NCBI RefSeq assembly: GCF_025698965.1
Contig: NZ_JAILWL010000011.1
Span: 1 to 33,924 of the forward strand
Length of the DNA stretch: 33,924 bases
Source: Roseibium sp.
Lineage (GTDB): Bacteria > Pseudomonadota > Alphaproteobacteria > Rhizobiales > Stappiaceae
Reading direction: 5' to 3'
Below are positions 4,654-28,593 of this stretch, in pieces. Under the pieces are notes generated by a model. The model did no database searches and had not been told where the DNA came from. It was given only the letters and a program-made list of their open reading frames with translations. The number at the start of each line of letters is the position of its first letter. Position 1 is the first letter of the stretch. The translations under genes and the position numbers were made by a program.

Positions 4654-7472
4654 TTGCTCACCTTCTGACGAACCACGGCAGGTCCTTCCCCGACCGGCGA
4701 TTTCAAGGCACCGAAGACGGGCTGGCTCTCCTCTGGTGCTGTCACTTTTTCAATGCGGACGCGAAGATCGAACCAGGCCGCCTGCCCGGTAATCGGGTCG
4801 GAGTTCGCCCATCTCATGCCATCGCCCTTCGATGGCAGCAATTCATGGATCAGGTGGTTCAGAAGAAACCCCTTTGTTGCCTCCGGCGCGTCATCTTCAA
4901 GTGCCCAGGCCCCTTTGCGTTTACCGATGGCATTCCACGTCCAGACGGTGTTTTCGTTGAGCCCGGCCATGTGGGCGACCGGCACCGTGATCTGTCCATG
5001 AATGGATGTCACCTGTGCCCAATCGCCATCTTCAAACCCGTGCTGCTGCCAGATTTTCGTTGGCACATAAAGCGGATTGCGCCCGTGGATCTGCCGCAGC
5101 CAGGCATTCTGACTTCCCCAGGAGTGGTACATCGCCATTGGCCGTTGCGTGAGCGCATGCACCGGGTACTGCTCAGGATCGACCACCGTCTCCTCCAGGA
5201 CCGGATACCAGGTCGGCAACGGATCCAGACACTCAAGGATCTGCTGGCGCAGGTGATCCGGAGGCTGCCGCTCGCCATGTCCCTCCGCTGCAAGTTGCAG
5301 CCGTCTGAGAGGTTCGACATAGAGCTGAAAGAGATAGGGCTGTGGTTTGTCGTAAAATCCGAGGCCGACCGCCCAGTCCTGATAGGCCCGGTTCCAGGGT
5401 TTGTAAAAAGCCGCTTCATCCGGCACATGTTCGACAAAAAAGCTGCCGTTCTCGATGTATTTTTCAAGTTGATCCGGATTGATATCTCCCCGACCGGTCT
5501 TTGTACCGTCGCCACGGAACCCGGCAAGCGGACCGATTCCGGGCCGGCGCTGATGATTGACGATGTAATCGGCATAGTCTTCGTAACGAGCCTCGCCATT
5601 CTCATCGATAAATCCGGGAAGACCGAGCCTCGCTCCCAGATCGATCAGAACTGACTGAAACCCGCGCACGTCCCTGTCCGGTTCGACCACCGGCCAGCGG
5701 ATCGCATCTGCCGCAGCTTCCGCTTCACAGATCGGCCTGTCCAGAAGCGAGATACAGTCATGCCGCTCCAGATAGGTGGTATCGGGCAGGATCAGATCCG
5801 CATAAGCGACCATCTCGGAGGAATAGGCGTCGGAGTAGATGATGCGCGGAATGACATAGTCTCCGTTCTCATCCTTGTCCGTCAGCATTTCCATGACACC
5901 ACGCGTGTTCATGGACGAGTTCCAGGCCATGTTGGCCATATAGAGGAACAGCGTGTCGATCTTGTAGGGGTCGCCCGCATGTGCATTGGAAATGACCATA
6001 TGCATCAGGCCATGCGCTGAGAGCGGATTCTCCCAGGTGAATGCCTTGTCGATCCGCGCGGGAGATCCGTCTTCCTTGAAGGCAAGATCTGCCGGTCCGC
6101 GAACAAAACCAAGATGGGGACCATCAAGCGGACAGTCCGGTTTTGAATGACAATGAGGTGTCGGATGTGCCTCGACCGGCTTCGGGTAAGGCGGCTTGAA
6201 ACGGAACCCGCCAGGGACCTCGACAGTTCCAAGGAGGATTTGCAGGACGTGAAGCGTCCGACAGGTCTGAAAGCCGTTGGAATGCGCTGAAATCCCGCGC
6301 ATGGCATGAAAGCTCACCGGTCTTCCGGTCATCGTCTCATGCCGTTTGCCGCGAAAATCCGTCCAGGGTTGGTCGAGTTCGAATGCTTCTTCAAATGCAA
6401 CCCGGGCCAGTTCGGCGGCGATCGATTTAATGCGCCCGGCGCTGACACCGCATCGCTCGCCAACGGCTTCGGGGCTGTAGTCTTCCGAAAGGAAACGTTC
6501 GGCAAGGTGTTGGAAGACAGTCCGGTGCGTCACCCCGTCCATTTCAACACTGGCTGCCAGATTGGGTTTGACGCCAGGCTCGTCGAACGGTGTTAGCGTG
6601 CCGGTGGTTCGGTCGACAACAAGCGGCTTGCCGTCACTGTCCCGCAGCAGAAGGCCGTTGTCCGGAGACCCGGGTGTCTCGTTGAGCAGACAGGGTGCGT
6701 TGGTAAAGTTTGCAAGATACTTCAGATCTATCTTGCCGGCCTTCAAAAGCAGATGGATCAGCGCGGAAATAAAAAGCCCGTCTGTTCCGGGCGTGATGCC
6801 GACCCATTCGTCGGCGATTGCGTTGTATCCGGAGCGGATCGGATTGACCCCGATCACCTTGCCTCCGCGAGCCTTCAGCTTGCCGAGCCCCATCTTGATC
6901 GGATTGGAATCGTGGTCCTCCGCCACTCCGAAAATCATGAAGAGTTTCGTCCGGTCCCAGTCCGGTTGACCGAATTCCCAGAACGCCCCACCCATGGTGT
7001 AGATACCGGCGGTCGCCATGTTGACCGAGCAGAACCCGCCATGGGCCGCATAGTTCGGAGTACCGAAATTCTGGGCCCAGAAACTCGTAAAACTCTGCGA
7101 CTGATCCCGGCCGGTGAAAAAAGCAAGTTTCTCCGGAGAAGACTTGCGGATCGGCTCAAGCCACAAGGTTGCGATCGACAGTGCTTCGTCCCAGGAGATT
7201 TCCTCGAATTCTCCAGACCCGCGCGGCCCGGTTCGTTTCATCGGTGCACGCAACCGGGACGGTGCATTCACCTGCATTATGCCGGAAGACCCTTTGGCGC
7301 AAAGCACGCCCTTGTTGACGGGATGGTCGCGATTGCCTTCGATATAGGCCACCTTGCCATCTTTCATATGCACGTTGATCCCACATCGGCAGGCGCACAT
7401 GTAACAGGTTGTTTTCCGAACTTCGTCAGACACTTTGGGCGAGGTGTCGAGTGCCCGATCTTCAAAAAACAT
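4650..7472 (-). CDS. soeA: Molybdopterin oxidoreductase catalytic subunit, probably cytoplasmic sulfite dehydrogenase SoeA
   Basis: Start at MFFEDRALDTSPKVSDEVRKTTCYMCACRCGINVHMKDGKVAYIEGN (ATG 7472 overlaps ackA stop); CxxCxxxC FeS motif near the N-terminus, no Tat RR leader, Mo-bisPGD oxidoreductase body; adjacency to xsc supports sulfite as substrate. Confidence 0.78.
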   Translation of the reverse strand: MFFEDRALDTSPKVSDEVRKTTCYMCACRCGINVHMKDGKVAYIEGNRDHPVNKGVLCAKGSSGIMQVNAPSRLRAPMKRTGPRGSGEFEEISWDEALSIATLWLEPIRKSSPEKLAFFTGRDQSQSFTSFWAQNFGTPNYAAHGGFCSVNMATAGIYTMGGAFWEFGQPDWDRTKLFMIFGVAEDHDSNPIKMGLGKLKARGGKVIGVNPIRSGYNAIADEWVGITPGTDGLFISALIHLLLKAGKIDLKYLANFTNAPCLLNETPGSPDNGLLLRDSDGKPLVVDRTTGTLTPFDEPGVKPNLAASVEMDGVTHRTVFQHLAERFLSEDYSPEAVGERCGVSAGRIKSIAAELARVAFEEAFELDQPWTDFRGKRHETMTGRPVSFHAMRGISAHSNGFQTCRTLHVLQILLGTVEVPGGFRFKPPYPKPVEAHPTPHCHSKPDCPLDGPHLGFVRGPADLAFKEDGSPARIDKAFTWENPLSAHGLMHMVISNAHAGDPYKIDTLFLYMANMAWNSSMNTRGVMEMLTDKDENGDYVIPRIIYSDAYSSEMVAYADLILPDTTYLERHDCISLLDRPICEAEAAADAIRWPVVEPDRDVRGFQSVLIDLGARLGLPGFIDENGEARYEDYADYIVNHQRRPGIGPLAGFRGDGTKTGRGDINPDQLEKYIENGSFFVEHVPDEAAFYKPWNRAYQDWAVGLGFYDKPQPYLFQLYVEPLRRLQLAAEGHGERQPPDHLRQQILECLDPLPTWYPVLEETVVDPEQYPVHALTQRPMAMYHSWGSQNAWLRQIHGRNPLYVPTKIWQQHGFEDGDWAQVTSIHGQITVPVAHMAGLNENTVWTWNAIGKRKGAWALEDDAPEATKGFLLNHLIHELLPSKGDGMRWANSDPITGQAAWFDLRVRIEKVTAPEESQPVFGALKSPVGEGPAVVRQKVSK

Positions 7473-8614
7473 CAACAGGGCTCCGTAAGGGACAAGGCAT
7501 TTCTGGCAATCATTTCTTCCTCTTCCGCCGGTACGATCCACACCTCCACCCTGGAATCGGCGGCGTGCAATTTTGCTGAACCAGCCTCGTTGGCCTGTTC
7601 GTCGACGTCAACGCCAAGCCATGAAAGACCTTCAAGAATTGTGGATCTTGCCCTGGCATCGTTTTCCCCGATGCCACCGGTGAAGGCGACGGCGTCCAGA
7701 CCGCCCATTGCCGCAATCATCGAACCGGCATGGCGAATGGCCCAATAGCAAAAGTGTTCGACCGCAAATCGGGATTCTTCGGTGTTGAGAGACTGAAGCT
7801 GACGCATGTCCGAAAACCCGCCGAGCGCCAGCAGACCGCTTTCCTTGTTGAGGATATCCGACGTGCGTTCAACTCCGTGTTCCGCCACCATTTTCAGAAC
7901 GACGTTGCCGTCGATGGATCCGCACCGGGTTCCCATGGTCAGACCTTCCAGTGGGGAATAACCCATCGTCGTCGCAACGGACTTGCCGCGGCGAACCGCA
8001 CACAGGCTGGCACCATTTCCAAGGTGAAGCGCCAACAGCCTTTCCGGCACATCTTTTCCGGAAACGCCAGGGAGCTTGTGCACCAGGCTCTGATAGGAAA
8101 TACCGTGAAACCCGTAGCGCTGCAGCCCGGCTTCGGTTTCACTGTCGGGAATGGCGTAACGCCTGGCAACTTCAGGATTGGTCGCGTGAAATGCCGTGTC
8201 GAAGCTCACGCATTGCGCAAGCTCAGGCGCAATCTCGGCAACTGCCCGAATGGCAGCGAGATTGTGCGGATTGTGAAGCGGTGCCAGCGGAATGCAACGA
8301 TCGATTTCCGCAAGAACATCTTCGTTCACCAGGCAAGGGGCAAGAAGGTTACGTCCACCATGCACCACCCGGTGAGCTGCCGCCCGGAGGCTGGAAAGAG
8401 CAATACCCATTTCTTCCAGCGCCCCGAAAATGGCATCCAGCGCGCTGACATGACTGGGGAGCGACAAGCCCACTCCATGAGTGTCCACGATCAACTTTGA
8501 GGCGCCGCCGATTTCGACAGCGCTCCCATAGGTTTTTTTCGACAAGTCCGCTGCGAACACAGCGAACTTGATCGAGGACGATCCGGAATTCAGGACAAGT
8601 ATGTCTCCCATCAC
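7472..8614 (-). CDS. ackA: Acetate kinase
   Basis: MGDILVLNSGSSSIKFAVF, RVVHGG, FDTAFH, RYGFHGISYQSL, LHLGNGASLCAV, TMGYSPLEGLTMGTRCGSID, FTGGIGENDA are AckA motifs. Confidence 0.95.
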   Translation of the reverse strand: MMGDILVLNSGSSSIKFAVFAADLSKKTYGSAVEIGGASKLIVDTHGVGLSLPSHVSALDAIFGALEEMGIALSSLRAAAHRVVHGGRNLLAPCLVNEDVLAEIDRCIPLAPLHNPHNLAAIRAVAEIAPELAQCVSFDTAFHATNPEVARRYAIPDSETEAGLQRYGFHGISYQSLVHKLPGVSGKDVPERLLALHLGNGASLCAVRRGKSVATTMGYSPLEGLTMGTRCGSIDGNVVLKMVAEHGVERTSDILNKESGLLALGGFSDMRQLQSLNTEESRFAVEHFCYWAIRHAGSMIAAMGGLDAVAFTGGIGENDARARSTILEGLSWLGVDVDEQANEAGSAKLHAADSRVEVWIVPAEEEEMIARNALSLTEPC

Positions 8615-8631: not shown

Positions 8632-10410
8632 TCAGGCGCCGGTTTGCGGACGCATGTCGTCAGCCGATATTCCAGCCACTTCCACCGGCTTTTTCATGGC
8701 ATCGCGCCGGAAAGGCTCACCAAGTTCCTGGTTGATCAGCACTTCGATCAAGGTTGTCTTGCCCTGGTTCATCTGCCGGTCGACCGCCTTGTCGAGTTCA
8801 TCCGTCAACTCGGTCATGGTCCGGGCCTGAACGCCTTCCAGTCCACAGGCCTTGGCGATACCGGCGTAGCTGACCTGTTCATCCAGCTCGGTACCGACAA
8901 AGTTGTCATCATACCAGAGTGTCGAGTTGCGCTTCTCCGCACCCCACTGATAGTTCCGGAAAACAACCATGGTGATGGCCGGCCACTCGCTGCGGCCGAT
9001 TGCCGTCAGTTCGGTTACCGCGATCCCGAAGGCGCCGTCCCCGGCAAACCCGACAACCGGCGTGTCCGGGCACCCGATCTTGGCGCCGACGATTGACGGA
9101 AGCCCGTATCCGCACGGCCCGAACAGGCCCGGTGCAAGATACTTCCTGCCCTGTTCGAAGCTTGGGTAGGCGTTGCCAATGGCGCAGTTGTTTCCAATGT
9201 CGGAGCTGATGATCGCTTCTTTCGGCAAGGCCGCCTGAATTGCGCGCCATGCCTTGCGCGGGCTGAGCCAGTCCGGCTTGGCTTCGCGTGCACGCTCGTT
9301 CCAGGTTGTGCCCGGGTCGTCGTCTTCATGATCCATGGACGATAGCTGCTGCGCCCAGCGCGACTTCGTTTGCGAGATGGTGTGCACGCGGTCTTCACGA
9401 CCCTCGTTGCCTGCAGTTGGAGCAAGTTTTTCAAGGATCGCATCAGCGACTTTCTTGGCATCTCCGACAATTCCGACGGAAACTGTTTTGGTCAGGCCGA
9501 TACGGTCGGGGTTAATATCCACCTGAATGATGCTGGCATCCTTCGGCCAGTAGTCGATACCGTATCCGGGCAAAGTGGAGAACGGGTTCAAACGGGTGCC
9601 GAGCGCAAGCACTACATCGGCCTTGGAAATCAACTCCATGCCCGCCTTCGATCCGTTGTAACCGAGCGGTCCCGCAAAGAGCCGGTGTGAGCCCGGGAAT
9701 GCGTCATTGTGCTGATAACCGCAGCAAACCGGAGCATCCAGACGCTCCGCAAGCGCCATGGAAGCCGGGATGGCACCACCGAGAACGACACCCGCACCGT
9801 TGAGGATGACAGGAAACTTTGCCTTGCTCAAAAGCTCGGCAGCTTCCGCAATTGCCGTTGCCCCGCCATCCGGACGCTCGAATTCAACGATCGCCGGAAG
9901 GGCGATGTCGACCACCTGGGTCCAGTAATCGCGCGGGACGTTGATCTGTGCCGGAGCGCTTGCGCGTTTTGCCTGCATGATGACCCGGTTCAGGACCTCA
10001 GCGATGCGGGACGGGTCACGAACTTCTTCCTGATAGGCGACCATATCCTTGAAGAGATCCATCTGCTCGACCTCCTGAAAGCCACCCTGACCTATCGTCT
10101 TGTTGGCAGCCTGAGGCGTGACGAGCAGGAGCGGCGTATGATTCCAGTAAGCCGTCTTGACCGCTGTGACGAAGTTCGTGATTCCCGGACCGTTCTGGGC
10201 GATCATCATGCTCATCTTGCCACTGGCGCGGGTATATCCATCGGCCATCATACCTCCGGAGCACTCATGGGCGCAGTCCCAGAAGTTAATGCCGGCCCGG
10301 GGGAACAGATCGGAAATCGGCATAAACGCCGAACCGATGATTCCAAACGCATGTTCGATACCGTGCGCCTGAAGCACTTTGACGAATGCTTCCTCGGTCG
10401 TCATTTTCAT
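8632..10410 (-). CDS. xsc: Sulfoacetaldehyde acetyltransferase (TPP-dependent)
   Basis: Likely start MKMTTEEAFVKVLQAHGIEHAFGIIGSAFMPISDLFPRAGINFWDCAHECSGGMMADGYTRASG at 10410; IGSAFMPISD and GGFQEVEQMDLFKDMV are Xsc-like; TPP motif GDGAFGIAVTELTAIGRSEWPAITMVVFRN. Confidence 0.95.
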   Translation of the reverse strand: MKMTTEEAFVKVLQAHGIEHAFGIIGSAFMPISDLFPRAGINFWDCAHECSGGMMADGYTRASGKMSMMIAQNGPGITNFVTAVKTAYWNHTPLLLVTPQAANKTIGQGGFQEVEQMDLFKDMVAYQEEVRDPSRIAEVLNRVIMQAKRASAPAQINVPRDYWTQVVDIALPAIVEFERPDGGATAIAEAAELLSKAKFPVILNGAGVVLGGAIPASMALAERLDAPVCCGYQHNDAFPGSHRLFAGPLGYNGSKAGMELISKADVVLALGTRLNPFSTLPGYGIDYWPKDASIIQVDINPDRIGLTKTVSVGIVGDAKKVADAILEKLAPTAGNEGREDRVHTISQTKSRWAQQLSSMDHEDDDPGTTWNERAREAKPDWLSPRKAWRAIQAALPKEAIISSDIGNNCAIGNAYPSFEQGRKYLAPGLFGPCGYGLPSIVGAKIGCPDTPVVGFAGDGAFGIAVTELTAIGRSEWPAITMVVFRNYQWGAEKRNSTLWYDDNFVGTELDEQVSYAGIAKACGLEGVQARTMTELTDELDKAVDRQMNQGKTTLIEVLINQELGEPFRRDAMKKPVEVAGISADDMRPQTGA

Positions 10411-10494
10411 GTCGATTACTCCCGTGAATTCGATGATGTCTGTTCTGCGCAAGCAGTGTTGGCTCTAGTTTTAACTCCCTTTTCCCTCCGTCTC

Positions 10495-10527
10495 TTAGGG
10501 CCAGATTGTAGGCCTTCATATAGCCAG
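10495..10527 (-). promoter_or_regulatory. Candidate TauR direct-repeat operator upstream of xsc
   Basis: Minus-strand CTGGCTATAT (10527-10518) and CTGGCCCTAA (10504-10495), 23 bp start to start; the latter is identical to the box upstream of tauR at 19830. Confidence 0.6.
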
Positions 10528-10940: not shown

Positions 10941-13388
10941 TCAGACCTTCACCCGTTCAGATTTCGGGTCATACATCGGTTTCAGAGACGCCTCGGCTTC
11001 GACGCGCGTCCCGGCCACTTCGATTTCGTAGGAAGAGCTCAGAACCTGATCCGCGGTTTCCCCGCTGCAGGGCACATAACCAAGCCCCATGGCACCGCCC
11101 AATGTGTGACCGTAATTGCCACTGCTCAGAAAACCGACCACCTCGCCATCCCTGAGGATAGGCTCCGCGTGATAGAGCAAGGGGTCGGGATCGGTCAGCC
11201 GGAACTGCACCAGCCGCTTTTGCAAACCCTCTTCGCGCTTGCGCAGCACTGCTTCGCGGCCAATAAAATGAGGCTTGTCCCGCTTGACGGCAAAACCCAG
11301 CCCTGCCTCCAGCACATGATCTTCGCAGGTTATGTCGTGACCGAAATGGCGGAAACCTTTTTCGATCCGGCACGAATCCATCATATGCATGCCGCAGAGC
11401 TTTGCATTCATCTCCTGCCCGGCTGCATGAAGGGTCTCGAACACATGTGCTGCCATATCCGCTGAGACATAAAGCTCCCAACCGAGTTCACCGACATAGG
11501 TCACCCGATGCGCTCGCGCCAATGCCATGCCGATCTCGATTTCCTGCGCCGTTCCAAATGGATTGGCAGCGTTGGTGAAATCATTGGGAGAAATCGCCTG
11601 CAGCAATTTCCGCGAGTTTGGTCCCATGACTGCAAGAACAGCCTCGCCAGCCGTCACATCCGTGATCACGACCCGGAAATCGCCTATATGCCGCCGAAGC
11701 CAGGTTTCATCGGCCAGCCGGGTCGCAGCTGGCGTTACGACGAGATAAGCGGTTTCCGAAAGACGCGTTACCGTCACGTCCGCTTCGATCCCGCCCCGGT
11801 CGTTGAGCAGCTGGGTGTAAACGATCTTGCCTGGAGGCACGGAGTAGTCGCCGCCGCCGACATAGTTCAAAAAAGCCTCGGCATCCGGACCTTCAACACG
11901 GATCTTGCCAAAGGACGACATATCATAGACACCGACATTCTCTCGGATCGCCAGATGTTCACGTGCTGCATTTTCAAACCAGTTCTGGCGTTTCCAGGTG
12001 TAGCGGTATTCTCTTTCCTGCCCTTCATCCGCAAACCAGTTCGCCCGTTCCCAGCCTGCCAACTCTCCGAACACGGCTCCTTGCGCCTTTAACTGCTCAT
12101 GCAATGGCGTGCGGCGGATGCCACGTGCTGTTGCCTTTTGCCGGTAAGGAAAGTGATCGGCATATAGCAGGCCAAGCGTTTCCTTCGATCGCTCAAACAG
12201 ATAGTGGCGATTGCCCTGGAAAGGCTGCATGCGTGAAATGTCGACATCGCCCAGGTCGAATGGCTTGGCACCACTGTCCATCCATTCCGCCAGTGCCATG
12301 CCCGCCCCGCCCGCAGACTGGATGCCGATGGAATTGAAGCCCGCAGCCACCCAGACGTTATCCATTTCCGGCGCAAGACCCAGATGATAGGCATCGTCCG
12401 GAGTAAAGCTCTCCGGCCCGTTGAAGAAGGTGTGAATGCCGGTTTCGGCCAACAACGGCATGCGGTTGACCGCAGCTTCGAGGATAGGCTCGAAATGATC
12501 GAAATCCTCTGGCAGCTGATCGAATTCGAAATCGTCCGGGATGCCCGTCATACCCCAGGGTTTGGCATTCGGCTCGAACGCCCCGAGCAGGATCTTGCCG
12601 GCATCTTCCTTGTAATAGGCACATTCATCCGGAACGCGCAGAACAGGCAGCTGCGTCAGGCCGGGAACATTCTCGGTGACAATGTAGAAGTGCTCGCAGG
12701 CATGCAGCGGAACGTTGACCCCGGCCATGCGGCCAAGCTCATGGCCCCACATGCCGCCGCAATTGACGATGTGGTCGCACTCGATAACGCCGGCGCCATC
12801 AGCCGACTGCCATTCGACACCCGTCACGCGGCGACCTGATTTCTGGAGACCCGTAACTTTCACCCGTTCCAGCACCTTGGCGCCGCGCTTGCGCGCTCCC
12901 TTTGCCAGTGCCAGAGCGATATTGGCCGGGTCCCCCTGGCCGTCGAGAGGAAGATAAACACCGGCAACAACATCCTCGACATTCAGATGCTCATAGCGTG
13001 CCTTGACTTCCGAAGGCGTGATTTCTTCCACTTCGACGCCGAAGGCCCGGGCCATGGAGGCCTGACGGAAGATTTCCTCCTTTCGCTCTTCGGTGAGCGC
13101 GACGGTGATCGAGCCGCACCGCCGGAAACCGGTGGCAACCTCCGTCTCTTCCTCTAGCTTGCCGTAAAGCTCCTGACTGTACTTGGCGAGCCGTGTCATG
13201 TTTTCGGTCGCGCGCAGCTGGGCAATCAACCCTGCGGCGTGCCAGGTCGTGCCGGAAGTCAGCTGCTTGCGTTCCAGCAGAACGACGTCCGTCCAACCTT
13301 TCTTGGTCAGATGATAGGCGACGGAACACCCGACAACGCCGCCGCCGATGACGACAACCCGGGCCTTTGATGGAGGTGCCACGTTCAA
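10941..13388 (-). CDS. FAD-dependent oxidoreductase/GcvT fusion (sarcosine/dimethylglycine dehydrogenase family), copy 1
   Basis: N-terminal ARVVVIGGGVVGCSVAYHL (FAD), LTSGTTWHAAGLIAQLR (covalent-FAD His context), C-terminal GcvT aminomethyltransferase region (ENVGVYDMSSFGKIRVEGPDAEAFLN, TYVGELGWELYV). Confidence 0.9.
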   Translation of the reverse strand: MNVAPPSKARVVVIGGGVVGCSVAYHLTKKGWTDVVLLERKQLTSGTTWHAAGLIAQLRATENMTRLAKYSQELYGKLEEETEVATGFRRCGSITVALTEERKEEIFRQASMARAFGVEVEEITPSEVKARYEHLNVEDVVAGVYLPLDGQGDPANIALALAKGARKRGAKVLERVKVTGLQKSGRRVTGVEWQSADGAGVIECDHIVNCGGMWGHELGRMAGVNVPLHACEHFYIVTENVPGLTQLPVLRVPDECAYYKEDAGKILLGAFEPNAKPWGMTGIPDDFEFDQLPEDFDHFEPILEAAVNRMPLLAETGIHTFFNGPESFTPDDAYHLGLAPEMDNVWVAAGFNSIGIQSAGGAGMALAEWMDSGAKPFDLGDVDISRMQPFQGNRHYLFERSKETLGLLYADHFPYRQKATARGIRRTPLHEQLKAQGAVFGELAGWERANWFADEGQEREYRYTWKRQNWFENAAREHLAIRENVGVYDMSSFGKIRVEGPDAEAFLNYVGGGDYSVPPGKIVYTQLLNDRGGIEADVTVTRLSETAYLVVTPAATRLADETWLRRHIGDFRVVITDVTAGEAVLAVMGPNSRKLLQAISPNDFTNAANPFGTAQEIEIGMALARAHRVTYVGELGWELYVSADMAAHVFETLHAAGQEMNAKLCGMHMMDSCRIEKGFRHFGHDITCEDHVLEAGLGFAVKRDKPHFIGREAVLRKREEGLQKRLVQFRLTDPDPLLYHAEPILRDGEVVGFLSSGNYGHTLGGAMGLGYVPCSGETADQVLSSSYEIEVAGTRVEAEASLKPMYDPKSERVKV

Positions 13389-13427
13389 CTCTTTCTATGC
13401 TTTCTGTCACACATTCACGATGGCCCA

Positions 13428-14984
13428 TCAGGACCTTGAAAGACTGGCCAACGGCATGGCCGCATGCAGCGCGGCTTCCGTCTGAGGGTCAATCAGATGA
13501 CTGTCTTCGGACAATATGGATCGAACTCTTTCGGCAGCCGTATCGAGCAAGCGTGGTTTGCCGCGCTCTTCCCATTCCTTTGGGCTCGAACGATCTGCAA
13601 GTTCAGGATAGATGTACTCGCTTTGCATCAGCTGCAGGGTCTGGTCGTGACCGAGGTAATGTCCCGGCCCATCCAGCACGACGGAGCGAACCACCTCCAG
13701 GTCGACATATTCGTCCTTGACCTCGATGCCGCGCACACAGCGCTGCACCTGACCGAGCATGTCATTGCCCAGAACCAGGGATTCCAGACAAAAACCGAGC
13801 AGGGAAGCATGCATCCCGACGGACTCATAGACCATGTTGAGGCCCGAAAGACCCGCCATGACATTGCTGATCCCCTGCTCCCAGCCTGCCTGCATATCGG
13901 GCAACTTGCTGTCGGCGATACCGGCGGCGGCTCCGCCGGGCAAACCGTAGAACTGATGCATCTGCGCACAGGCGGCACTCAGCAGGGCCTGCTCTCCACT
14001 GCCTCCGGACATCGCTCCGGTGCGCAGATCGCTTACGAACGGCCAGGTACCGAAAATGGCGGTATGACCGGGCTTGACTGCATTGACATAAACAACGCCG
14101 GCGAGGCACTCGGCAACTGCCTGGACAACAGCCGTGGCAATGGGTGCAGGCGCGGTTGCCCCCGCCTGACCCGCCGACAAAAGCAGCACCGGCATGCCGG
14201 CCAGAATGCAAGCCTCCATCACCTCGCAGCTTTCCTCGGCAAATGTGAGCGGCGGCACGACAAAACAATTCGAGTTCGACACAAAAGGTCGCTCGCGCCA
14301 GGCATCTTCACCACCTGCAATCAAATGCAGCAGCTCCATGCATTTGTGAACGTTGCCTGCTTCGGTGAACGACGTCCCGATATGTTTGCTTGTCCCTGCA
14401 CAGGCCGCATAAAGCGTGTTCAGATCCAGGTCGAGCGGTGTTTCGAACTCACGACACACCACCGGGCGCTGGAAGAAATGGACATTGTCCAGCCGCTGCA
14501 CTATCCGCGCGGCATCATAAAGATCCTGAACCGAAGGATTTCGGTAGTCGCCGGTAACGGGATCGACCATGTGGACGGCCGCACCCGCTGTGCCGTAATG
14601 CACATTGGTACCCTGAAGCTGCAGATCATGTTGCGGGTCTCTCGCGCAGAGCGTGAAGTCCCGAGCGGCCCTGGCCAGCATGTCTTCAATAAGTGCGCGT
14701 GGAAACCGGATACGTCCATCGTCCCCTTCGATGGCTCCGGCAGCGGTCAGATAAGCCCTGCCGGACGGCGGAGCCGATCCCATGCCGATATTTTCCAGTG
14801 CATTGATCGCCGCTTCGTGGATGCGGGAAACATCCTCATCCTTTAAAGCTCGGAACTGCCCTCCTGGCAAGCCGGGCCTGACTGGCCGGATCGCCTGGTC
14901 CAGGGGACGAGCCCTGGCCGCAGTGCGCGCGGAACGGCCACCTGAACGGCGGCGTTGTTTCAGTTCACTTCCGCTCATAAACAC
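13428..14984 (-). CDS. MttB-family (trimethylamine/glycine-betaine type) methyltransferase, non-pyrrolysine
   Basis: YGTAGAAVHMVDPVTGDYRNPSVQDLYDAARIVQRLDNVHF, KPGHTAIFGTWPFVSDLRTGAMSGGSGEQALL, ADSKLPDMQAGWEQGISNVMAGLSGLNMVYESVGMHASLLGFCLES resemble the MttB superfamily; continuous 518-codon ORF with no internal amber. Confidence 0.88.
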   Translation of the reverse strand: MFMSGSELKQRRRSGGRSARTAARARPLDQAIRPVRPGLPGGQFRALKDEDVSRIHEAAINALENIGMGSAPPSGRAYLTAAGAIEGDDGRIRFPRALIEDMLARAARDFTLCARDPQHDLQLQGTNVHYGTAGAAVHMVDPVTGDYRNPSVQDLYDAARIVQRLDNVHFFQRPVVCREFETPLDLDLNTLYAACAGTSKHIGTSFTEAGNVHKCMELLHLIAGGEDAWRERPFVSNSNCFVVPPLTFAEESCEVMEACILAGMPVLLLSAGQAGATAPAPIATAVVQAVAECLAGVVYVNAVKPGHTAIFGTWPFVSDLRTGAMSGGSGEQALLSAACAQMHQFYGLPGGAAAGIADSKLPDMQAGWEQGISNVMAGLSGLNMVYESVGMHASLLGFCLESLVLGNDMLGQVQRCVRGIEVKDEYVDLEVVRSVVLDGPGHYLGHDQTLQLMQSEYIYPELADRSSPKEWEERGKPRLLDTAAERVRSILSEDSHLIDPQTEAALHAAMPLASLSRS

Positions 14985-15029
14985 TCCTCCAAGTAAGAAG
15001 CAAAAGCCTGTGGTACTGCTCGGCGCGTT

Positions 15030-17471
15030 TTACGCCCGAATACGCTCATTTTCCGGATCCCAGAGCGGCGCGTCCGGCTGGACAGTTGCCTTGAGCCGCT
15101 TGCCGTAAATTTCAATCTCGACTTCGGTCCCGGCCTTCGCAAGATCCGCCCGTATGACGCCCATTGCGATCGAGGCATTGATCCGGTAACCCCAGCCGCC
15201 CGAAGTGACCTCGCCGACAAGATCGTCACCGAGCCAGAGGGCCGACATGTAAGGCGCATCACAATCCTCGGCATCGACGATCATGGACACGAACCGTCTT
15301 TCGACCCCCTGCTGGATTTCGTTCAAAAGGGCCGCCTTGCCCGGAAAGTCCTGGGGTTTGTCGAGTTTCACAAACCGGTCCAGACCGCCTTCAAAGAGCG
15401 TGTAGTCGGTGGAAAGGTCCCCCTTCCAGGTCCGATAGCCTTTTTCCAGACGCAGCGCATCCAGCGCATACATACCGAAGGGTTTTGCACCTGCCTCCAG
15501 AATGGTTTCATAGATGACAGGCATATCTTCGAAACTTGCATGGACCTCCCAGCCCAATTCACCGGCAAAGGAGACCCGAACCAGCATGACATCCTTGCCC
15601 GCGACCTTCGCCTGCTGATGCGTCAGCCAGCCGAGTGAAAGATCCGCTTCGGCGATCTTGCCAAAGAGTTCGCGCGACTTTGGCCCGGAAACAATAAGCG
15701 TCGTCAGATCCCGCGTCCGATCCGTCAGGGAGAGCCCGTCCGCCAGATTGAACTTCAGCAGGTCAAAGTCGTGCCATTGCGCGGCAGCCGCGGTGATCAG
15801 CGTGAACGCGTCCTCGCTGTGACGTATGACCGACATTTCCGTCACGATCCGTCCGCGGTCATCGGCGAAATAGGCAAGGTTCATCCGACCCGCCTTTGGC
15901 AATGCGCCGGTAATCCGGCCACGCAACCACTCGGCTGCACCCGCACCTGTCAGGCTGAACCGGGAAAACCCGGGCAGATCGAGAACGCCGACATGATCCC
16001 GGACAGCTTCGCATTCTTCGCGGACACGCGGTTCCCAAGGTCCGGATCGCGACCAGGTCTGTGTGGCTTCTTCGGACGTGTCATCGCCCTGTCTGGCAAA
16101 CCAGTTGGCGCGCTCCCAGCCGTTGTAAGCCCCCATCTGCCCACCAAGTTCCAGCAATTTGTCGTGGATCGGCGACAATTTGCGGTCACGTCCGGCAGGC
16201 CAGGCGTGATGCGGAAAGTGCATGGCGTATTCATGACCATAAACTTCCATCGCCTTGTCGATGCAGTACTGCTTGTCGGTGTAGTCGGTATAGCGGCGCG
16301 GATCGCACGACCACATGTCCCACTCGGTCTCGCCGTGCATGATCCATTCCGCGGCCACTTTGCCCGCACCACCACCCTGGGCAATGCCGAAGGTAAAGGT
16401 ATGGGCTTCAAAGGCATTGGGAACACCCGGCATCGGTCCGATCATCGGCAGCCCGTCGGGCGCGTATGGGATTGGGCCATTGATGTTCCTGCTGACGCCC
16501 TGCGTTCCCAAAAGCGGAACACGCGCCATGGCGTCTTCGATATACCATTCAAGCCGGTCCAGATCGTCCGGATAAAGCTGGAAACTGAAATCTTCCGGCA
16601 TTGGGTCGTCCGGTCGGATCCAGGCTGCCTGACAGTTCCGCTCATAGGGACCAAGGTTGAAGCCCTTGGTTTCCTGTCGCAGGTAATAGGACGTATCGAC
16701 GTCGCGCAGCAGTGGGAGTTTCCGGCCGTTCTTGTCACTCCATTCTGCAATTTCCGGAACCGGCTCGGTCAAAAAATACTGGTGGCTCATGACGGCGGCT
16801 GGAACGGGACGGCCGCCATGGGGAATGAACCATTCTCCGACCCGCGGTGCGTAATAGCCGGCGGCATTGACGACGTATTCGCAGCGAATGTCACCCTTTT
16901 CCGTATGCACGATCCACTCGCCGTTTTCACGACTGACGCCGGTTGCCGGTGTAAACCGCGCGATCAGGCCACCAAGAGCGCGCGCGCCCTTTGCCAATGC
17001 CTGGGTGACCTGCGCCGGGTCGATGTCGCCATCCAGCGGATCCCAGAGCCCGCCTTCCAGATCGTGAAGTTCCATAAAGGGATAGTGCTGAAGCAGCTCT
17101 TCCGGTGTGCAGACGTCCATCTGCAGCCCCATGTGCCGGGCCATTGTCGCGGCATGCTCGAATTCCATCATCCGCTTGTGGCTGTGCGCAAGGCGCACTG
17201 ACCCGGTCACGTGATAATTGATCGGATAGTCGACTTCCTCCGCCAGGCCACGATACAGCTCAAGCCCATAGCGCTGAATATTCATGACACCGAAGCTCAT
17301 GGCGAAGTTCGGACAGTTACCGGCTGCATGCCAGGTGGAACCTGCCGTCAGCTCGTTCTTTTCCAAAAGCACACAATCGGACCAGCCGTTTTTGGCCAGA
17401 TGATAAAGCGTCGAAACGCCTACGATACCACCACCGATAATGACAACACGGGCTGTAGAGGGTACGGACAT
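15030..17471 (-). CDS. FAD-dependent oxidoreductase/GcvT fusion (sarcosine/dimethylglycine dehydrogenase family), copy 2
   Basis: ARVVIIGGGIVGVSTLYHLAKNGWSDCVLLEKNELTAGSTWHAAGNCPNF (covalent-FAD His motif), GcvT C-terminus (GVLDLPGFSRFSLTGAGAAEWLRG, FAGELGWEVHASFEDM). Confidence 0.9.
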   Translation of the reverse strand: MSVPSTARVVIIGGGIVGVSTLYHLAKNGWSDCVLLEKNELTAGSTWHAAGNCPNFAMSFGVMNIQRYGLELYRGLAEEVDYPINYHVTGSVRLAHSHKRMMEFEHAATMARHMGLQMDVCTPEELLQHYPFMELHDLEGGLWDPLDGDIDPAQVTQALAKGARALGGLIARFTPATGVSRENGEWIVHTEKGDIRCEYVVNAAGYYAPRVGEWFIPHGGRPVPAAVMSHQYFLTEPVPEIAEWSDKNGRKLPLLRDVDTSYYLRQETKGFNLGPYERNCQAAWIRPDDPMPEDFSFQLYPDDLDRLEWYIEDAMARVPLLGTQGVSRNINGPIPYAPDGLPMIGPMPGVPNAFEAHTFTFGIAQGGGAGKVAAEWIMHGETEWDMWSCDPRRYTDYTDKQYCIDKAMEVYGHEYAMHFPHHAWPAGRDRKLSPIHDKLLELGGQMGAYNGWERANWFARQGDDTSEEATQTWSRSGPWEPRVREECEAVRDHVGVLDLPGFSRFSLTGAGAAEWLRGRITGALPKAGRMNLAYFADDRGRIVTEMSVIRHSEDAFTLITAAAAQWHDFDLLKFNLADGLSLTDRTRDLTTLIVSGPKSRELFGKIAEADLSLGWLTHQQAKVAGKDVMLVRVSFAGELGWEVHASFEDMPVIYETILEAGAKPFGMYALDALRLEKGYRTWKGDLSTDYTLFEGGLDRFVKLDKPQDFPGKAALLNEIQQGVERRFVSMIVDAEDCDAPYMSALWLGDDLVGEVTSGGWGYRINASIAMGVIRADLAKAGTEVEIEIYGKRLKATVQPDAPLWDPENERIRA

Positions 17472-17494
17472 TCGATCTTCCTTCTTGGAGCGGA

Positions 17495-18052
17495 TCAGTA
17501 AACAGGCGGGGAAATGACCCAGACGGCAACCGCCGGCTCTGAGTAAGGGTTCTCCCAGCGGTAAGAGGCATCCCGGATGCGAAAACTGTCCCCGGCCTCA
17601 ACCGTGAACTTTTCGTCATCCAGCCAGATATCGAGTTTGCCGGAGACGATGTAGGCAAGCTCCTGAGTGGGACGCGAAATCAGTTCCACCCGGCGTGAGC
17701 CGGGTTGGAACGTTGAATGGATCATCTCGAAATCATCCGTAAGGTCGGGCGAAATCAGGGTTTCGACCAACCCCTGATCGCGCTCTCCGATCACGCGGCG
17801 CGAAGCGGCTCGAACAACCCGTCCCCGCTCCCTTTCCGGCCCGTCGGTACTGCCGAAAAACAACGAGAGCTGAACACCGAAAACATCTGCGATCTGACGC
17901 AGGTCGGACATTCTGGGCGTAGAGATATCGCGCTCGATCTGGGACAGCCAGCCGACGGACCGCCCAAGCTTTTGGGCAAGCTCCTCAAGCGTCATCTTTC
18001 GGGCCGTTCTGAGGGCTCTTAGGTCCTCACCCAGGCTGCTGTTTTCCGTCAT
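17495..18052 (-). CDS. XRE-family HTH regulator with C-terminal cupin domain
   Basis: N-terminal HTH LRALRTARKMTLEELAQKLGRSVGWLSQIERDISTPRMSDLRQIADVFGV; C-terminal cupin VELISRPTQELAYIVSGKLDIWLDDEKFTVEAGDSFRI. Confidence 0.9.
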   Translation of the reverse strand: MTENSSLGEDLRALRTARKMTLEELAQKLGRSVGWLSQIERDISTPRMSDLRQIADVFGVQLSLFFGSTDGPERERGRVVRAASRRVIGERDQGLVETLISPDLTDDFEMIHSTFQPGSRRVELISRPTQELAYIVSGKLDIWLDDEKFTVEAGDSFRIRDASYRWENPYSEPAVAVWVISPPVY

Positions 18053-18063
18053 GGCGATCCATT

Positions 18064-18123
18064 CGTGAAAATTTCGAGGATAATTTCACGCGACTCCGTG
18101 AAAAAATCAATCAAAATTTCACG
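18064..18123. promoter_or_regulatory. Symmetric heptamer array CGTGAAA-N13-TTTCACG-N6-CGTGAAA-N13-TTTCACG, candidate XRE-cupin operator
   Basis: Heptamers at 18064-18070, 18084-18090, 18097-18103, 18117-18123; 33-bp repeat unit; begins 12 bp upstream of the XRE-cupin ATG. Confidence 0.7.
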
Positions 18124-18357: not shown

Positions 18358-19827
18358 TCAGCGGGTCGCCTCACCGACCCTTTTCGCGATCAGTGAAATG
18401 CCTTCGGGAATACGCACCGAAGCGATGGACGAATAGGCCAGTCGGTAGTAGCCGGGCCGTTCCTGACCATTGGCAAAGAAGGCGCGTCCTGGCTCGATGA
18501 GAACACCATCGTCACGCAGGTTGAGAGCCAGTCCGGAACTGTCAATCCCCTCCGGGGCCTTCATCCAGAAGGAGGAACCACCAAATGTGAATTGTCCGGA
18601 CTGGGACAGGCCGTGCTCACTCAGGCACTCTTCCATGATCGACCTGCGTTTACGGTAGATACGCCCCATCCGCGCGATCTGGGCGTCGTAATGACCAAGC
18701 GACAGAAAGTAGGCTGCGGTCCTTTGAATGAGGCCGGGCGGATGGCGCAGAACAAGGGAGCGTAATGCCCGCGCTTCCCGGATAAAGGGTTCCGAAGCAA
18801 CCAGATATCCCAGCCGTAGTCCGGGAAACAGGGACTTGGAGAATGAGCCCACATAGATGACCGATCCGGTCGGATCGAGCGACTTCAGCGCAGGTGATGG
18901 CGACTTTAGGAACGAAATCTCGAATTCGTAGTCGTCTTCAACGATGACAAAGCCCTTGCGTGCAGCAAGTTCCAACAGCCGATGGCGGCGTGAAACAGGC
19001 ATGGTCGCATTGCTCGGGCAATGGTGGCTTGGCGTGGTAAAAACCACATCCAGATCTTCAGGCAGGTTTTCCGGCGGCAGGCCGGCCGCATCGACATCCA
19101 CGGACACGGTATTGCAGCGCGTCTGATTGAGGATCTGCCTGAGACCGGGAAAACAAGGGTTCTCGATCACCGCGCTGCGGCGCTGTGTCAGCAGGATCTG
19201 CGCCGTGATCCAGAGCGCATGCTGAGCGCCCATCGTGATCAGGATTTCTTCAGGGCGCGCGGTGATGCCCCGGCGTGGCAGGATCTGCCGCAGGATAAAC
19301 TCCACCAGCATGGGATCGTCACGTTCGTAGTAATCCGTTGCCAGAATATCGAAGTCCTTCCGACCGACTGCTCTCAGCGCACAGTTTCGCCAATTGTGGT
19401 GATCGAACAATCGGGGGTCGGATTGACCGTAAATGAAAGGATACTTGTAATCCTGCCAATTGGAGGGTCGGACCAGTGGAACATGCTGCGAAAATCTCTG
19501 ACCAATGGCACGGGCCCAATCGATCTGACCGTCTGCCACCTGATCCGGCAAATCGAATTTCGGTCGGCTCGGCGCGGTCTGCGCCACAAAATAACCGGAC
19601 CTGCCTTTTGACACGAGATATTCGTTGGAGACCAACTCAGTATAGGCGATTGTGACCGTTATTCTTGCAACACCAAGATGATCGGCGAGCTTGCGGGTTG
19701 AAGGCATCTTCTCCCCCGGCAGGCAACGGCCGGATAAGATCGCCTCCACGACCAGCCGCTGGATTTGCTGCTGCAAGGTTGTTTCATTGTCAGGCTGAAG
19801 AAAGAACGTCTCCGCCGGTATCGCCAT
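18358..19827 (-). CDS. tauR: MocR-type (GntR HTH + aminotransferase-like) regulator of taurine utilisation
   Basis: N-terminal GntR HTH (LPGEKMPSTRKLADHLGVARITVTIAYTELVSNEYLVSKGRSGYFV), PLP aminotransferase-like domain with YVGSFSKSLFPGLRLGYLV; located between tauABC/tpa and xsc. Confidence 0.88.
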   Translation of the reverse strand: MAIPAETFFLQPDNETTLQQQIQRLVVEAILSGRCLPGEKMPSTRKLADHLGVARITVTIAYTELVSNEYLVSKGRSGYFVAQTAPSRPKFDLPDQVADGQIDWARAIGQRFSQHVPLVRPSNWQDYKYPFIYGQSDPRLFDHHNWRNCALRAVGRKDFDILATDYYERDDPMLVEFILRQILPRRGITARPEEILITMGAQHALWITAQILLTQRRSAVIENPCFPGLRQILNQTRCNTVSVDVDAAGLPPENLPEDLDVVFTTPSHHCPSNATMPVSRRHRLLELAARKGFVIVEDDYEFEISFLKSPSPALKSLDPTGSVIYVGSFSKSLFPGLRLGYLVASEPFIREARALRSLVLRHPPGLIQRTAAYFLSLGHYDAQIARMGRIYRKRRSIMEECLSEHGLSQSGQFTFGGSSFWMKAPEGIDSSGLALNLRDDGVLIEPGRAFFANGQERPGYYRLAYSSIASVRIPEGISLIAKRVGEATR

Positions 19828-19829
19828 GT

Positions 19830-19861
19830 CTGGCCCTAAAGCTTGGGTTATCTGGACCTAT
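19830..19861 (+). promoter_or_regulatory. Candidate TauR direct-repeat operator at the tauR start
   Basis: CTGGCCCTAA (19830-19839) and CTGGACCTAT (19852-19861), 22 bp start to start, immediately upstream of the tauR start codon (19827) and in opposite orientation to the gene. Confidence 0.6.
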
Positions 19862-20004: not shown

Positions 20005-21384
20005 TTATCCAAAGACCCGCGTCAACGCACCGTCAATTGCATCCGTGATCTGATCGATGTCATCCGAGGTCGCAATCAAGGCCGGAGACAGACACAGGGT
20101 GTTGTTGAGGCCAGGCAAAGAGCGGTTGGTTGCGCCGATGATCACGCCCTGCGACGCGCAGTCTCCGACAACGGCCTGCACGAGTTTTTCTGCCACCGGC
20201 TCCTTCGTGGCCCGATCTGCAACAAGTTCAGCTCCGCAGAACAACCCCTTGCCCCGGACATCGCCAATGGCCTGATGCTTTTCCATGAGCACGTGCAGAT
20301 TGCTCACAAGACGCTCACCCATGGCCGTGGTGTTGTCCAGAAGGCCTTCGTCCTCGATGATCCGCATGTTTTCAAGCGCGGCTGCCGGACCCGCCGTGCA
20401 CCCGCCAAAAGTTGAAATATCCCGGAAATGGTTCAGCGGATCGCCTGCGTCATCCTTGAACAGGTCGAATACCCGTTCCGTCGTCACCATGCAGGCAATT
20501 GCCGCGTAGCCGGAAGCAACGCCTTTTGCCATGGTCACGAAATCCGGTTCGATCCCGTAATGCTGGTACCCGAACCATTTTCCGGTTCGGCCGACGCCAC
20601 ACACAACTTCATCGATATGCAACAGGATCTCGTATTTGCGGCAGATTTCCTGAACACGCTGCCAATATCCCTCGGGCGGCGTAATGACACCGCCACCGGC
20701 AGTCACCGGTTCGAGGCAAAGCGCACCGACGGTGTCCGGACCTTCGCGCAGGATCACTTCTTCAATGGCGTCGGCCGCCCGCTCGCCATAGTTTTCGACA
20801 TCCCACTGCGCCCTGTATTCACAACAATGCGGCACTTCAACAAAGCCCGGTGTATAGGGACCGTATTGCGCATTCCGCTCCGGCTGACCACCGGCTGAGA
20901 TCGCAGTGATAGAGGAGCCATGGTAATCCCGCTCGCGGAACAGGATCTTGTGCTTCTTGCCACCGTAACGCTTGTGGGCAATCTGCCGGACAAGCTTGAA
21001 CGCCTTCTCGTTGGCTTCGGTTCCCGAGTTGGTCAGGTAGACCCGGCTCATGCCCGGCATCTTCGAGATCAGACGTTCGGAGAACAGAGCACCGGGAATG
21101 GAGCCTGCCGAATTGGCAAAATAGTTCAGTTTCACCAATTGGTCGCGAACAGCGTCGGCAATGGATTCGCGGCCATAGCCGACATTGACGGTCCACACGC
21201 CCCCGGAGACAGCATCGAGATGTTCCTTGCCGGTGGCATCCCAGAGCCGCATGCCCTTTCCTTCCACCATGATCTTGGGATCGACGGTCTCCAGCGATTT
21301 GTGCTGGAGCAAGTGATGCCAGACATGGGTGCGGTCGGCCTCAATGATATCGCTCATGTCATTCGGGGCTGCTGCAATGTTCAT
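20005..21384 (-). CDS. tpa: Taurine--pyruvate aminotransferase (class III)
   Basis: Likely start MNIAAAPNDMSDIIEADRTHVWHHLLQHKSLE; class-III motifs YLTNSGTEANEKAFKLVRQ, LHIDEVVCGVGRTGKWFGYQHYGIEPDFVTMAKGVASGYAAI; adjacent to tauABC and tauR. Confidence 0.92.
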   Translation of the reverse strand: MNIAAAPNDMSDIIEADRTHVWHHLLQHKSLETVDPKIMVEGKGMRLWDATGKEHLDAVSGGVWTVNVGYGRESIADAVRDQLVKLNYFANSAGSIPGALFSERLISKMPGMSRVYLTNSGTEANEKAFKLVRQIAHKRYGGKKHKILFRERDYHGSSITAISAGGQPERNAQYGPYTPGFVEVPHCCEYRAQWDVENYGERAADAIEEVILREGPDTVGALCLEPVTAGGGVITPPEGYWQRVQEICRKYEILLHIDEVVCGVGRTGKWFGYQHYGIEPDFVTMAKGVASGYAAIACMVTTERVFDLFKDDAGDPLNHFRDISTFGGCTAGPAAALENMRIIEDEGLLDNTTAMGERLVSNLHVLMEKHQAIGDVRGKGLFCGAELVADRATKEPVAEKLVQAVVGDCASQGVIIGATNRSLPGLNNTLCLSPALIATSDDIDQITDAIDGALTRVFG

Positions 21385-21533
21385 GGCAATGTCCTTTCGT
21401 ATTTCATCGTCATGCGCAAAGATTTCAGAGAGTTCGAACGCGGTCAGGTCTTGCTCGCAAATGGGCAATTGCACATTATTGAAACAAGGAACTGCTGGTT
21501 TCGAGATCAGACTGCACGGCCCGACAGCGACAT

Positions 21534-21566
21534 ATAGGGCCAGATCTGGAATTACGTTAGATCCAG
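21534..21566 (-). promoter_or_regulatory. Candidate TauR direct-repeat operator between tpa and tauA
   Basis: Minus-strand CTGGATCTAA (21566-21557) and CTGGCCCTAT (21543-21534), 23 bp start to start; same motif as at xsc and tauR. Confidence 0.6.
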
Positions 21567-21700
21567 TCGAGTGTTTTTATTGTCACAGCGTCTTTCTGCC
21601 GTAACCATTTTTACCACGCAGGTTAGCCGAATTACACAAATGGCATAAGACGGGAAAACCCGCACACCTGCATTCCAACCAGGGAACAGTGGGAATAACA

Positions 21701-22702
21701 ATGACCATCAAATCAAAGTTTTTGAGCACACTGGCTGCTTTGTCCTTCGTGGGCAGTGTCCAGGTCGCTTCCGCCGCAGACGAACTGACTGTCGCCTACT
21801 TCCTCGAATGGCCCATGCCGTTCCAGTATGCCAAGGCAACCGGCATGTATGACGAGGCCCTCGGCGTGCCCGTCACCTGGGTGTCGTTCGATACCGGCAC
21901 CGCCATGTCGGCAGCGATGGCGTCAGGAGACGTCCAGATCGCCGTCAGTCAGGGCATTCCTCCCTTCGTCGTCGCAACCTCCGCCGGTCAGGATCTGGTC
22001 CTCACGGATATCGCTGTCAGCTACTCCGAAAACGACAACTGCGTGGTTGCCGAAACTCTTGAAATCGAGAAAGGCAATGCGAAGGAGCTTGAAGGCAAGA
22101 AAGTTGGCGTTCCGATCGGCACAGCAGCGCACTTCGGTTTCCTTGAGCAAATGAAACACTTCGATGTCGACGTTTCGACCATGGAAATCGTCGACATGGC
22201 GCCTGCGGATGGCGCTGCTGCATTTGCCCAGGGCAACCTGGACATGGTGTGTGGCTGGGGTGGTGCGCTGCGTCGCATGAAAGAGCATGGCAACGTTCTC
22301 TTGACCGGTGCGGAAAAGGAAGAGCTCGGCATTCTCGTATTTGACGGCATCAGTGTTCCTGCTGATTTCGCCTCCGAGGAAAGTGAACTTCTGACCAAGT
22401 TCCTTAAAGTAACCGCAGACGCCAATGCCATGTGGAATGCCGGTGACAAAAAGGCTGAAATGCTCGAAGTCATTGCAAAAGACGCCGGTATGGATCCGGC
22501 TGACGCAGAAGCTTCGCTCTCAACCTTCACCTTCCCTTCTGTCGATGAAGCCTTGAGCGACAAATGGATGGGTGGAAACGTCCAGAGCTTCATGCTGGGT
22601 GTTGCCAAGGTCTTCCAGGATGCCGGCTCCATCCCGCAGGCGCTTGACACCTATGTCGACACGGTCGACTCCAGCCATCTGGCCGCGACCAAGAGCCAGT
22701 AA
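21701..22702 (+). CDS. tauA: Taurine ABC transporter substrate-binding protein
   Basis: Signal peptide MTIKSKFLSTLAALSFVGSVQVASAADELTVAYFLEWPMPFQYAKATG; SBP fold, upstream of tauBC and divergent from tpa. Confidence 0.88.
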   Translation: MTIKSKFLSTLAALSFVGSVQVASAADELTVAYFLEWPMPFQYAKATGMYDEALGVPVTWVSFDTGTAMSAAMASGDVQIAVSQGIPPFVVATSAGQDLVLTDIAVSYSENDNCVVAETLEIEKGNAKELEGKKVGVPIGTAAHFGFLEQMKHFDVDVSTMEIVDMAPADGAAAFAQGNLDMVCGWGGALRRMKEHGNVLLTGAEKEELGILVFDGISVPADFASEESELLTKFLKVTADANAMWNAGDKKAEMLEVIAKDAGMDPADAEASLSTFTFPSVDEALSDKWMGGNVQSFMLGVAKVFQDAGSIPQALDTYVDTVDSSHLAATKSQ

Positions 22703-22723
22703 CACGCATTTCCTGCATTACGT

Positions 22724-22745
22724 GGGGCGGCCACCCGGCCGCCCC
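22724..22745 (+). terminator. Intercistronic GC hairpin between tauA and tauB
   Basis: GGGGCGGCC-accc-GGCCGCCCC perfect 9-bp stem followed by ATTCTTTC; likely attenuates or stabilises the upstream tauA mRNA. Confidence 0.65.
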
Positions 22746-22782
22746 ATTCTTTCAACGCTCAAGCTGCAGGAGACGGCAGGCT

Positions 22783-26368: not shown

Positions 26369-26376
26369 GACTCGAG

Positions 26377-28587: not shown

Positions 28588-28593
28588 TCGATC

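Follow-up and report, generated by a model that had tools for sequence, protein, structure and literature searches.

MttB proteins require a corrinoid partner. For N-methyltaurine, the described route employs an unrelated dehydrogenase and is not known to involve an MttB or a GcvT fusion; it also supplies Xsc with an intermediate of the taurine pathway. Non-Pyl MttB enzymes, the DMGDH/SARDH family and the Tpa-Xsc pathway are all known. The non-Pyl enzymes of family PF06253 include MtgB of Desulfitobacterium and MtgB of Ruegeria pomeroyi DSS-3, the latter forming a system with MtgC and MtgD (PMC12478193). In R. pomeroyi, an aerobic alphaproteobacterium, the stand-alone corrinoid protein, the pterin-binding partner and the reactivase (RamA) are scattered in the genome, and the later methyls are left to DMGDH/SARDH-type enzymes. 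Up to seven PF06253 genes occur per genome, and other substrates have been suggested for them (PMC12478193). The demethylases, namely DMGDH, dimethylglycine oxidase and sarcosine dehydrogenase (4p9s, 5l46, 1pj5), are full-length DAO + FAO_M + GCV_T proteins. In the Tpa-Xsc regulon of TauR, regulated genes are preceded by paired CTGGACYTAA-like boxes (PMC5320631).

In the window, the whole stretch of 33,924 nucleotides that was analysed, relatives of these components lie side by side. The bacterium is a marine Roseibium (Stappiaceae), to judge from the best matches of the window. The minus strand carries the row xre-dmg2-mttB-dmg1 from 18052 to 10941, exactly between tauR, tpa and tauABC on one side and xsc, ackA and soeABC on the other (Table 1). 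The intergenic gaps from xre to dmg1 measure 23, 45 and 39 bp, which makes a single operon likely; 305 bp lie between it and tauR, and ~490 bp between it and xsc. All four reading frames are intact. The initial annotation had described a minus-strand block of two demethylases, mttB and an XRE gene between xsc and tauR/tpa/tauABC, and this arrangement is borne out, as are the proposed enzyme classes (one MttB-family protein, two GcvT-fused demethylases), which agree with the domain matches. A scan for sigma-70 promoters and terminators gave signals not above those of shuffled sequence. Among the flanking genes, the tpa candidate has no second copy in the genome at more than 35% identity, and the soe membrane subunit, which has no NCBIfam match, is assigned by position. 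At one end of the window lies a 2-oxoacid:acceptor oxidoreductase pair (55-2759), and at the other a PgaB-like deacetylase and TPR/Sel1-like repeat proteins (25604-32383), possible exopolysaccharide genes.

Table 1 Features of the demethylation block and the flanking taurine locus.
Feature	Coordinates	Strand	Description
soeABC-like molybdopterin oxidoreductase, Fe-S and membrane subunits	3008..7541	-	domain matches
ackA, acetate kinase	7472..8614	-	TIGR00016, 323 bits (cut-off 293)
xsc, sulfoacetaldehyde acetyltransferase	8632..10452	-	TIGR03457, 938 bits (cut-off 676)
TauR-like direct-repeat boxes, upstream of xsc	10495..10527	-	23-bp spacing, 3 mismatches
dmg1	10941-13388	-	815 aa; DAO + FAO_M + GCV_T + GCV_T_C (Pfam); 459 bits to DMGDH 4p9s
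mttB	13428-14984	-	518 aa; PF06253, 359 bits; MtgB structures 9yce/2qne, 177 bits
dmg2	15030-17471	-	813 aa; DAO/FAO_M/GCV_T/GCV_T_C (Pfam); 565 bits to DMGDH 4pab
xre	17495-18052	-	185 aa; HTH_31/HTH_3 + Cupin_2; first gene of the operon
Candidate XRE operator 1	18064..18090	.	27 bp; perfect palindrome arms CGTGAAA-N13-TTTCACG
Candidate XRE operator 2	18097..18123	.	perfect CGTGAAA-N13-TTTCACG; 33 bp from operator 1
MocR-type regulator, TauR candidate	18358..19827	-	GntR + aminotransferase domains
TauR-like direct-repeat boxes, upstream of tauR	19830..19861	+	22-bp spacing, 1 mismatch
Class III aminotransferase, taurine:pyruvate aminotransferase (tpa) candidate	20005..21474	-	PF00202
TauR-like direct-repeat boxes, between tpa and tauA	21534..21566	-	23-bp spacing, 2 mismatches
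tauABC-like ABC transporter	21689..24848	+	best NCBIfam matches are taurine SBP/ATPase/permease models

The PF06253 domain of mttB spans residues 13-508, nearly the entire protein, and its score far exceeds the gathering cut-off of 25 bits. Pyl334 of 7xcl aligns with an isoleucine, and an in-frame TAG is absent; mttB is therefore a non-Pyl member and not the trimethylamine MttB, and assignment as the Pyl-dependent trimethylamine enzyme was rejected. The similarity to the MtgB structures is only modest in bits (about 177). Five MttB genes are present in the genome, and the operon copy is the most divergent by far, with 359 bits to PF06253 vs 670-804 for the other four. No corrinoid partner for MttB is encoded within the 33,924 nucleotides of the window. 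Elsewhere the genome encodes, in addition to MetH, two stand-alone B12 proteins (B12-binding + B12-binding_2), one Pterin_bind protein and one reductive activase of the RACo type, a dispersed set like that of R. pomeroyi, and the operon MttB presumably pairs with the corrinoid protein of the genome.

Both dmg1 and dmg2 are full-length FAD and GcvT fusions of the DMGDH kind, with the four domains in one chain and the TWHAAG stretch retained in the alignment. The closest relative of dmg2 is dimethylglycine dehydrogenase, and a tertiary-amine step is its putative role; dmg1 is probably sarcosine-dehydrogenase-like, with a putative secondary-amine step. The next DMGDH-like gene of the genome shares 48% identity with dmg1, and several further ones exist, one pair of them adjacent. 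Contigs C634, C276, C194 and C224 of this genome (G000) carry additional modules with MttB or DMGDH: one with a mandelate-racemase-fold enzyme and a choline-dehydrogenase-like gene, one with SDRs, one as an MttB-DMGDH pair and one with a Rieske-like protein. These modules likely constitute a broad betaine-degrading repertoire.

The palindrome found twice in front of xre is kept at this place in almost all of the relatives examined (about 60 loci), usually as paired sites 32-39 bp apart (for example 14192-14250 in L006), and xre itself is conserved as the first gene of the block. In 3.6 Mb of loci, a set that contains duplicated stretches, the motif has 80 matches (≤1 mismatch), of which 76 are found no more than 300 bp upstream of xre. 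The remaining four represent a single site pair, present in two overlapping loci, in the gap that separates dmg1 from tpa in R. alba, where an inverted dmg1 is preceded by its own pair of perfect operators. Since the motif is almost confined to these two positions, it is very probably the operator of the XRE-cupin family, and in R. alba the control of dmg1 appears to have been kept after the operon was split. Paired boxes of the TauR type (PMC5320631) are found in the window only at xsc, tauR and tpa/tauA, with none upstream of xre. Having its own XRE operators and no TauR boxes, the demethylation block thus appears to be a separate regulon inside the TauR regulon. Such an arrangement fits induction by a distinct methylated compound, without naming it.

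The context of the block was surveyed in 45 sampled Roseibium genomes, a copy being counted as mttB at ≥80% identity. Eleven genomes carry it, and in ten of these the block resides inside the taurine locus, with dmg1 inverted in two of the ten. The exception is R. sediminis. Its taurine locus has the same gene order but no block (L264); the block lies elsewhere, where its neighbours are a TRAP transporter, an SDR, an ADH and a histidinol-dehydrogenase-like protein. The histidinol-dehydrogenase-like protein scores 723 bits with 8wwe and 545 with HpsN, and at most 257 with real histidinol dehydrogenases; from these matches it is predicted to be a DHPS dehydrogenase, so that a sulfonate pathway adjoins the block in this genome too. 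In the R. sediminis loci L009/L125, a class III aminotransferase and a glutamine-synthetase-like gene precede the block, and genes resembling those of a DHPS (hps) locus follow it. A twelfth Roseibium genome (G054) presents the row xsc-ackA-xre-dmg2-dmg1-mttB together with tpa and tauABC. In the trees, mttB and dmg2 of G054 do not group with the main taurine clades, so the assembly of this locus seems to have been independent, at least in part. Each of the 12 block-positive genomes contains xsc, vs 10 of the 33 other Roseibium genomes (p about 2e-5, a value that ignores kinship among genomes that are not independent). A second xsc locus, found in G045 (L131, 2029-13184), G044 and G069, includes a GMC oxidoreductase, a TRAP binding protein and a YeiH exporter. 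It adjoins an MttB gene (43%) and a DMGDH-like gene (38%), and so presents another MttB/DMGDH pair at a C2-sulfonate locus.

In Rhodobacteraceae, dmg1 is present in 263 of 397 sampled genomes. Most loci read there have the common form, in which xre, dmg2 and dmg1 follow one another, often with a LysE-type exporter after xre and often with a homocysteine S-methyltransferase after dmg2, and with no taurine genes. Taurine-linked copies are a minority, at least about nine, where 1-3 are expected by chance. Blocks with mttB occupy the taurine locus in Aliiruegeria and G477, and in G666, which also has purU and, between tpa and tauA, a third DMGDH-like gene. Three blocks lack mttB (G699, G540, G594), one is ended by a contig edge (G804), and two include a homocysteine methyltransferase (G595, G533); in G609, dmg1 stands directly upstream of tpa. 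Shuffled gene orders, with or without mttB, are seen at the taurine loci of at least eight Rhodobacteraceae, and a further one in Roseibium G054. In several genomes tpa and dmg1 are 50-90 kb apart, so some of the adjacency may be old regional linkage. The genes following dmg1, purU in G666 and ETF-like genes in G791, match, as expected, a need for folate-C1 and electron disposal. The third FAD-GcvT enzyme of G666 (L260, 9312-12904) is 38% identical to dmg2 and is accompanied by a LysR-type regulator.

In the trees, 16 of 17 taurine-linked dmg1 fall within one 24-member clade, 15 of 16 dmg2 within a 19-member clade and 13 of 14 mttB within a 17-member clade. Rhodobacteraceae also possess a sister module away from taurine genes, in which a divergent lysR is followed by dmg2, dmg1 and an mttB of 67-72%, often joined by a 3-hydroxyisobutyrate-dehydrogenase-like gene and an aldehyde dehydrogenase (L012, L027, L040, L046, L062, L072 and about 60 more loci). 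Between taurine-linked and other dmg1 and dmg2, no separating column beyond the N-terminus appears at 80% conservation, and only mild columns appear at 60%. The mttB alignment shows ten mild clade-specific positions vs the non-taurine sister clade; the residues of the window's clade are not shared by the separately placed MttB of G054, giving no signal of convergence in these columns. Co-location with taurine genes is strong in the block's own clades and weak in the wider family. The initial annotation had held that a block lying mostly away from taurine genes in relatives would speak against its proposal; this is the pattern of the wider dmg1/dmg2 family and not that of the block's own clade, where the survey it called for reveals a link with taurine genes, and once with DHPS genes, that recurs and withstands rearrangement. 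Location by chance alone was dropped as an explanation, the block recurring as a unit in too many relatives.

From this context, the block may degrade taurine betaine and N-methyltaurines to taurine and so feed the flanking pathway, a substrate assignment to which we give slightly less than even confidence. The substrate, a quaternary amine and most likely taurine betaine (N,N,N-trimethyltaurine), would give up one methyl, which MttB would transfer to the shared corrinoid protein of the genome and onward to folate. The dmg2 protein would then oxidatively demethylate the tertiary amine and dmg1 the secondary amine, each passing its C1 unit to tetrahydrofolate in the GcvT half. The resulting taurine would proceed through Tpa, Xsc and AckA, with the sulfite oxidised by SoeABC. 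Both the order of steps and the identity of the substrate are as we infer them. Family membership and gene neighbourhood give good support to the mechanism class, in which one N-demethylation is corrinoid-dependent and two are folate-linked. Taken as a whole, a complete aerobic sulfobetaine route, in which corrinoid-dependent loss of the first methyl through a new MttB subfamily and two folate-linked demethylations lead to taurine under an XRE-cupin sensor with its CGTGAAA-N13-TTTCACG site, plugged into the TauR regulon, is proposed tentatively and with a confidence somewhat below even. Several features count against a methylated taurine as substrate: the wider dmg1/dmg2 family, with the same XRE and operator, lies mostly off taurine genes; no residue pattern sets the taurine-linked copies apart; and TauR-type boxes are absent upstream of the block. 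In the paper library searched, no relevant paper on bacterial breakdown of N-methyltaurine or taurine betaine was retrieved.

The same enzymes could instead form a glycine betaine module inside the taurine locus, with MttB acting as MtgB, dmg2 as DMGDH and dmg1 as sarcosine dehydrogenase, yielding glycine. Co-location would then derive from shared ecology, both compounds being osmolytes of marine animals and algae, or from inherited regional linkage. We consider this reading, the main rival, somewhat less probable than the taurine one; the pattern of the wider family agrees with it nearly as well. Its main argument is the lack of strict column differences between the dmg1/dmg2 of the block and those of the common form, to which the operator shared by taurine-linked and other copies is added. 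The kinship of dmg2 to DMGDH also agrees with it, as does the homologous Rhodobacteraceae block, where both enzymes are paired with a homocysteine S-methyltransferase in the layout of the betaine-homocysteine route. In R. pomeroyi, DMGDH (SPO3400) and sarcosine dehydrogenase (SPO3396) are predicted a few genes apart (PMC4744692), and the steps predicted for dimethylglycine and sarcosine are elevated with glycine betaine (PMC12478193); the two genes are probably the common form of the block, as putative orthologues. What a glycine betaine module does not predict is the repeated placement at taurine loci in differing gene orders, the dmg1-tpa pair of G609, the DHPS-linked exception or the restriction of the block to xsc-positive Roseibium. 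Four other MttB and several other DMGDH-like genes are, moreover, free for glycine betaine in the genome.

Another betaine, such as beta-alanine betaine, which has a two-carbon spacer like taurine betaine, would give a product outside the taurine pathway. The sister MttB clade, which sits in a different operon away from taurine genes and differs at ten columns only, lends this option some room; the genomic context that ties the window's clade to taurine and DHPS genes makes it improbable. Pure hitch-hiking, in which a mobile demethylation cassette landed in the taurine operon with no functional meaning, appears very improbable. Empty and filled taurine loci do both exist, and the block brings its own regulator and operator. 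Against this, the association outlasts inversions and re-orderings, recurs in Stappiaceae and Rhodobacteraceae, and the XRE operators are kept at the inverted dmg1 of R. alba.

Most of the up to seven MttB paralogues of marine alphaproteobacteria have no known substrate (PMC12478193), and for one of them the block offers a specific candidate together with a full downstream pathway. If the methylated-taurine assignment is true, Roseibium and Rhodobacteraceae would be able to draw carbon, nitrogen and sulfur from these compounds, which would join glycine betaine and DMSP among the currencies in which marine microbes exchange methyl groups, nitrogen and sulfur.

Compared with known systems, the window resembles the Mtg systems in its non-Pyl PF06253 enzyme, its scattered corrinoid machinery and its aerobic alphaproteobacterial setting with later methyls left to DMGDH/SARDH-type enzymes. 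Unlike them, its MttB is divergent and shares one operon, at a taurine locus, with both demethylases and an XRE regulator. The dmg1 and dmg2 proteins retain the full-length architecture of the DMGDH/SARDH family, whereas their genetic context points to sulfonates. The flanking genes and their paired boxes follow the TauR regulon (PMC5320631), whereas the demethylation operon, with its XRE operators, forms a second regulon that interrupts the stretch from tauR to xsc. In conclusion, the new elements are the operator and the union of these known parts in a single XRE-controlled operon with a recurrent link to taurine genes.
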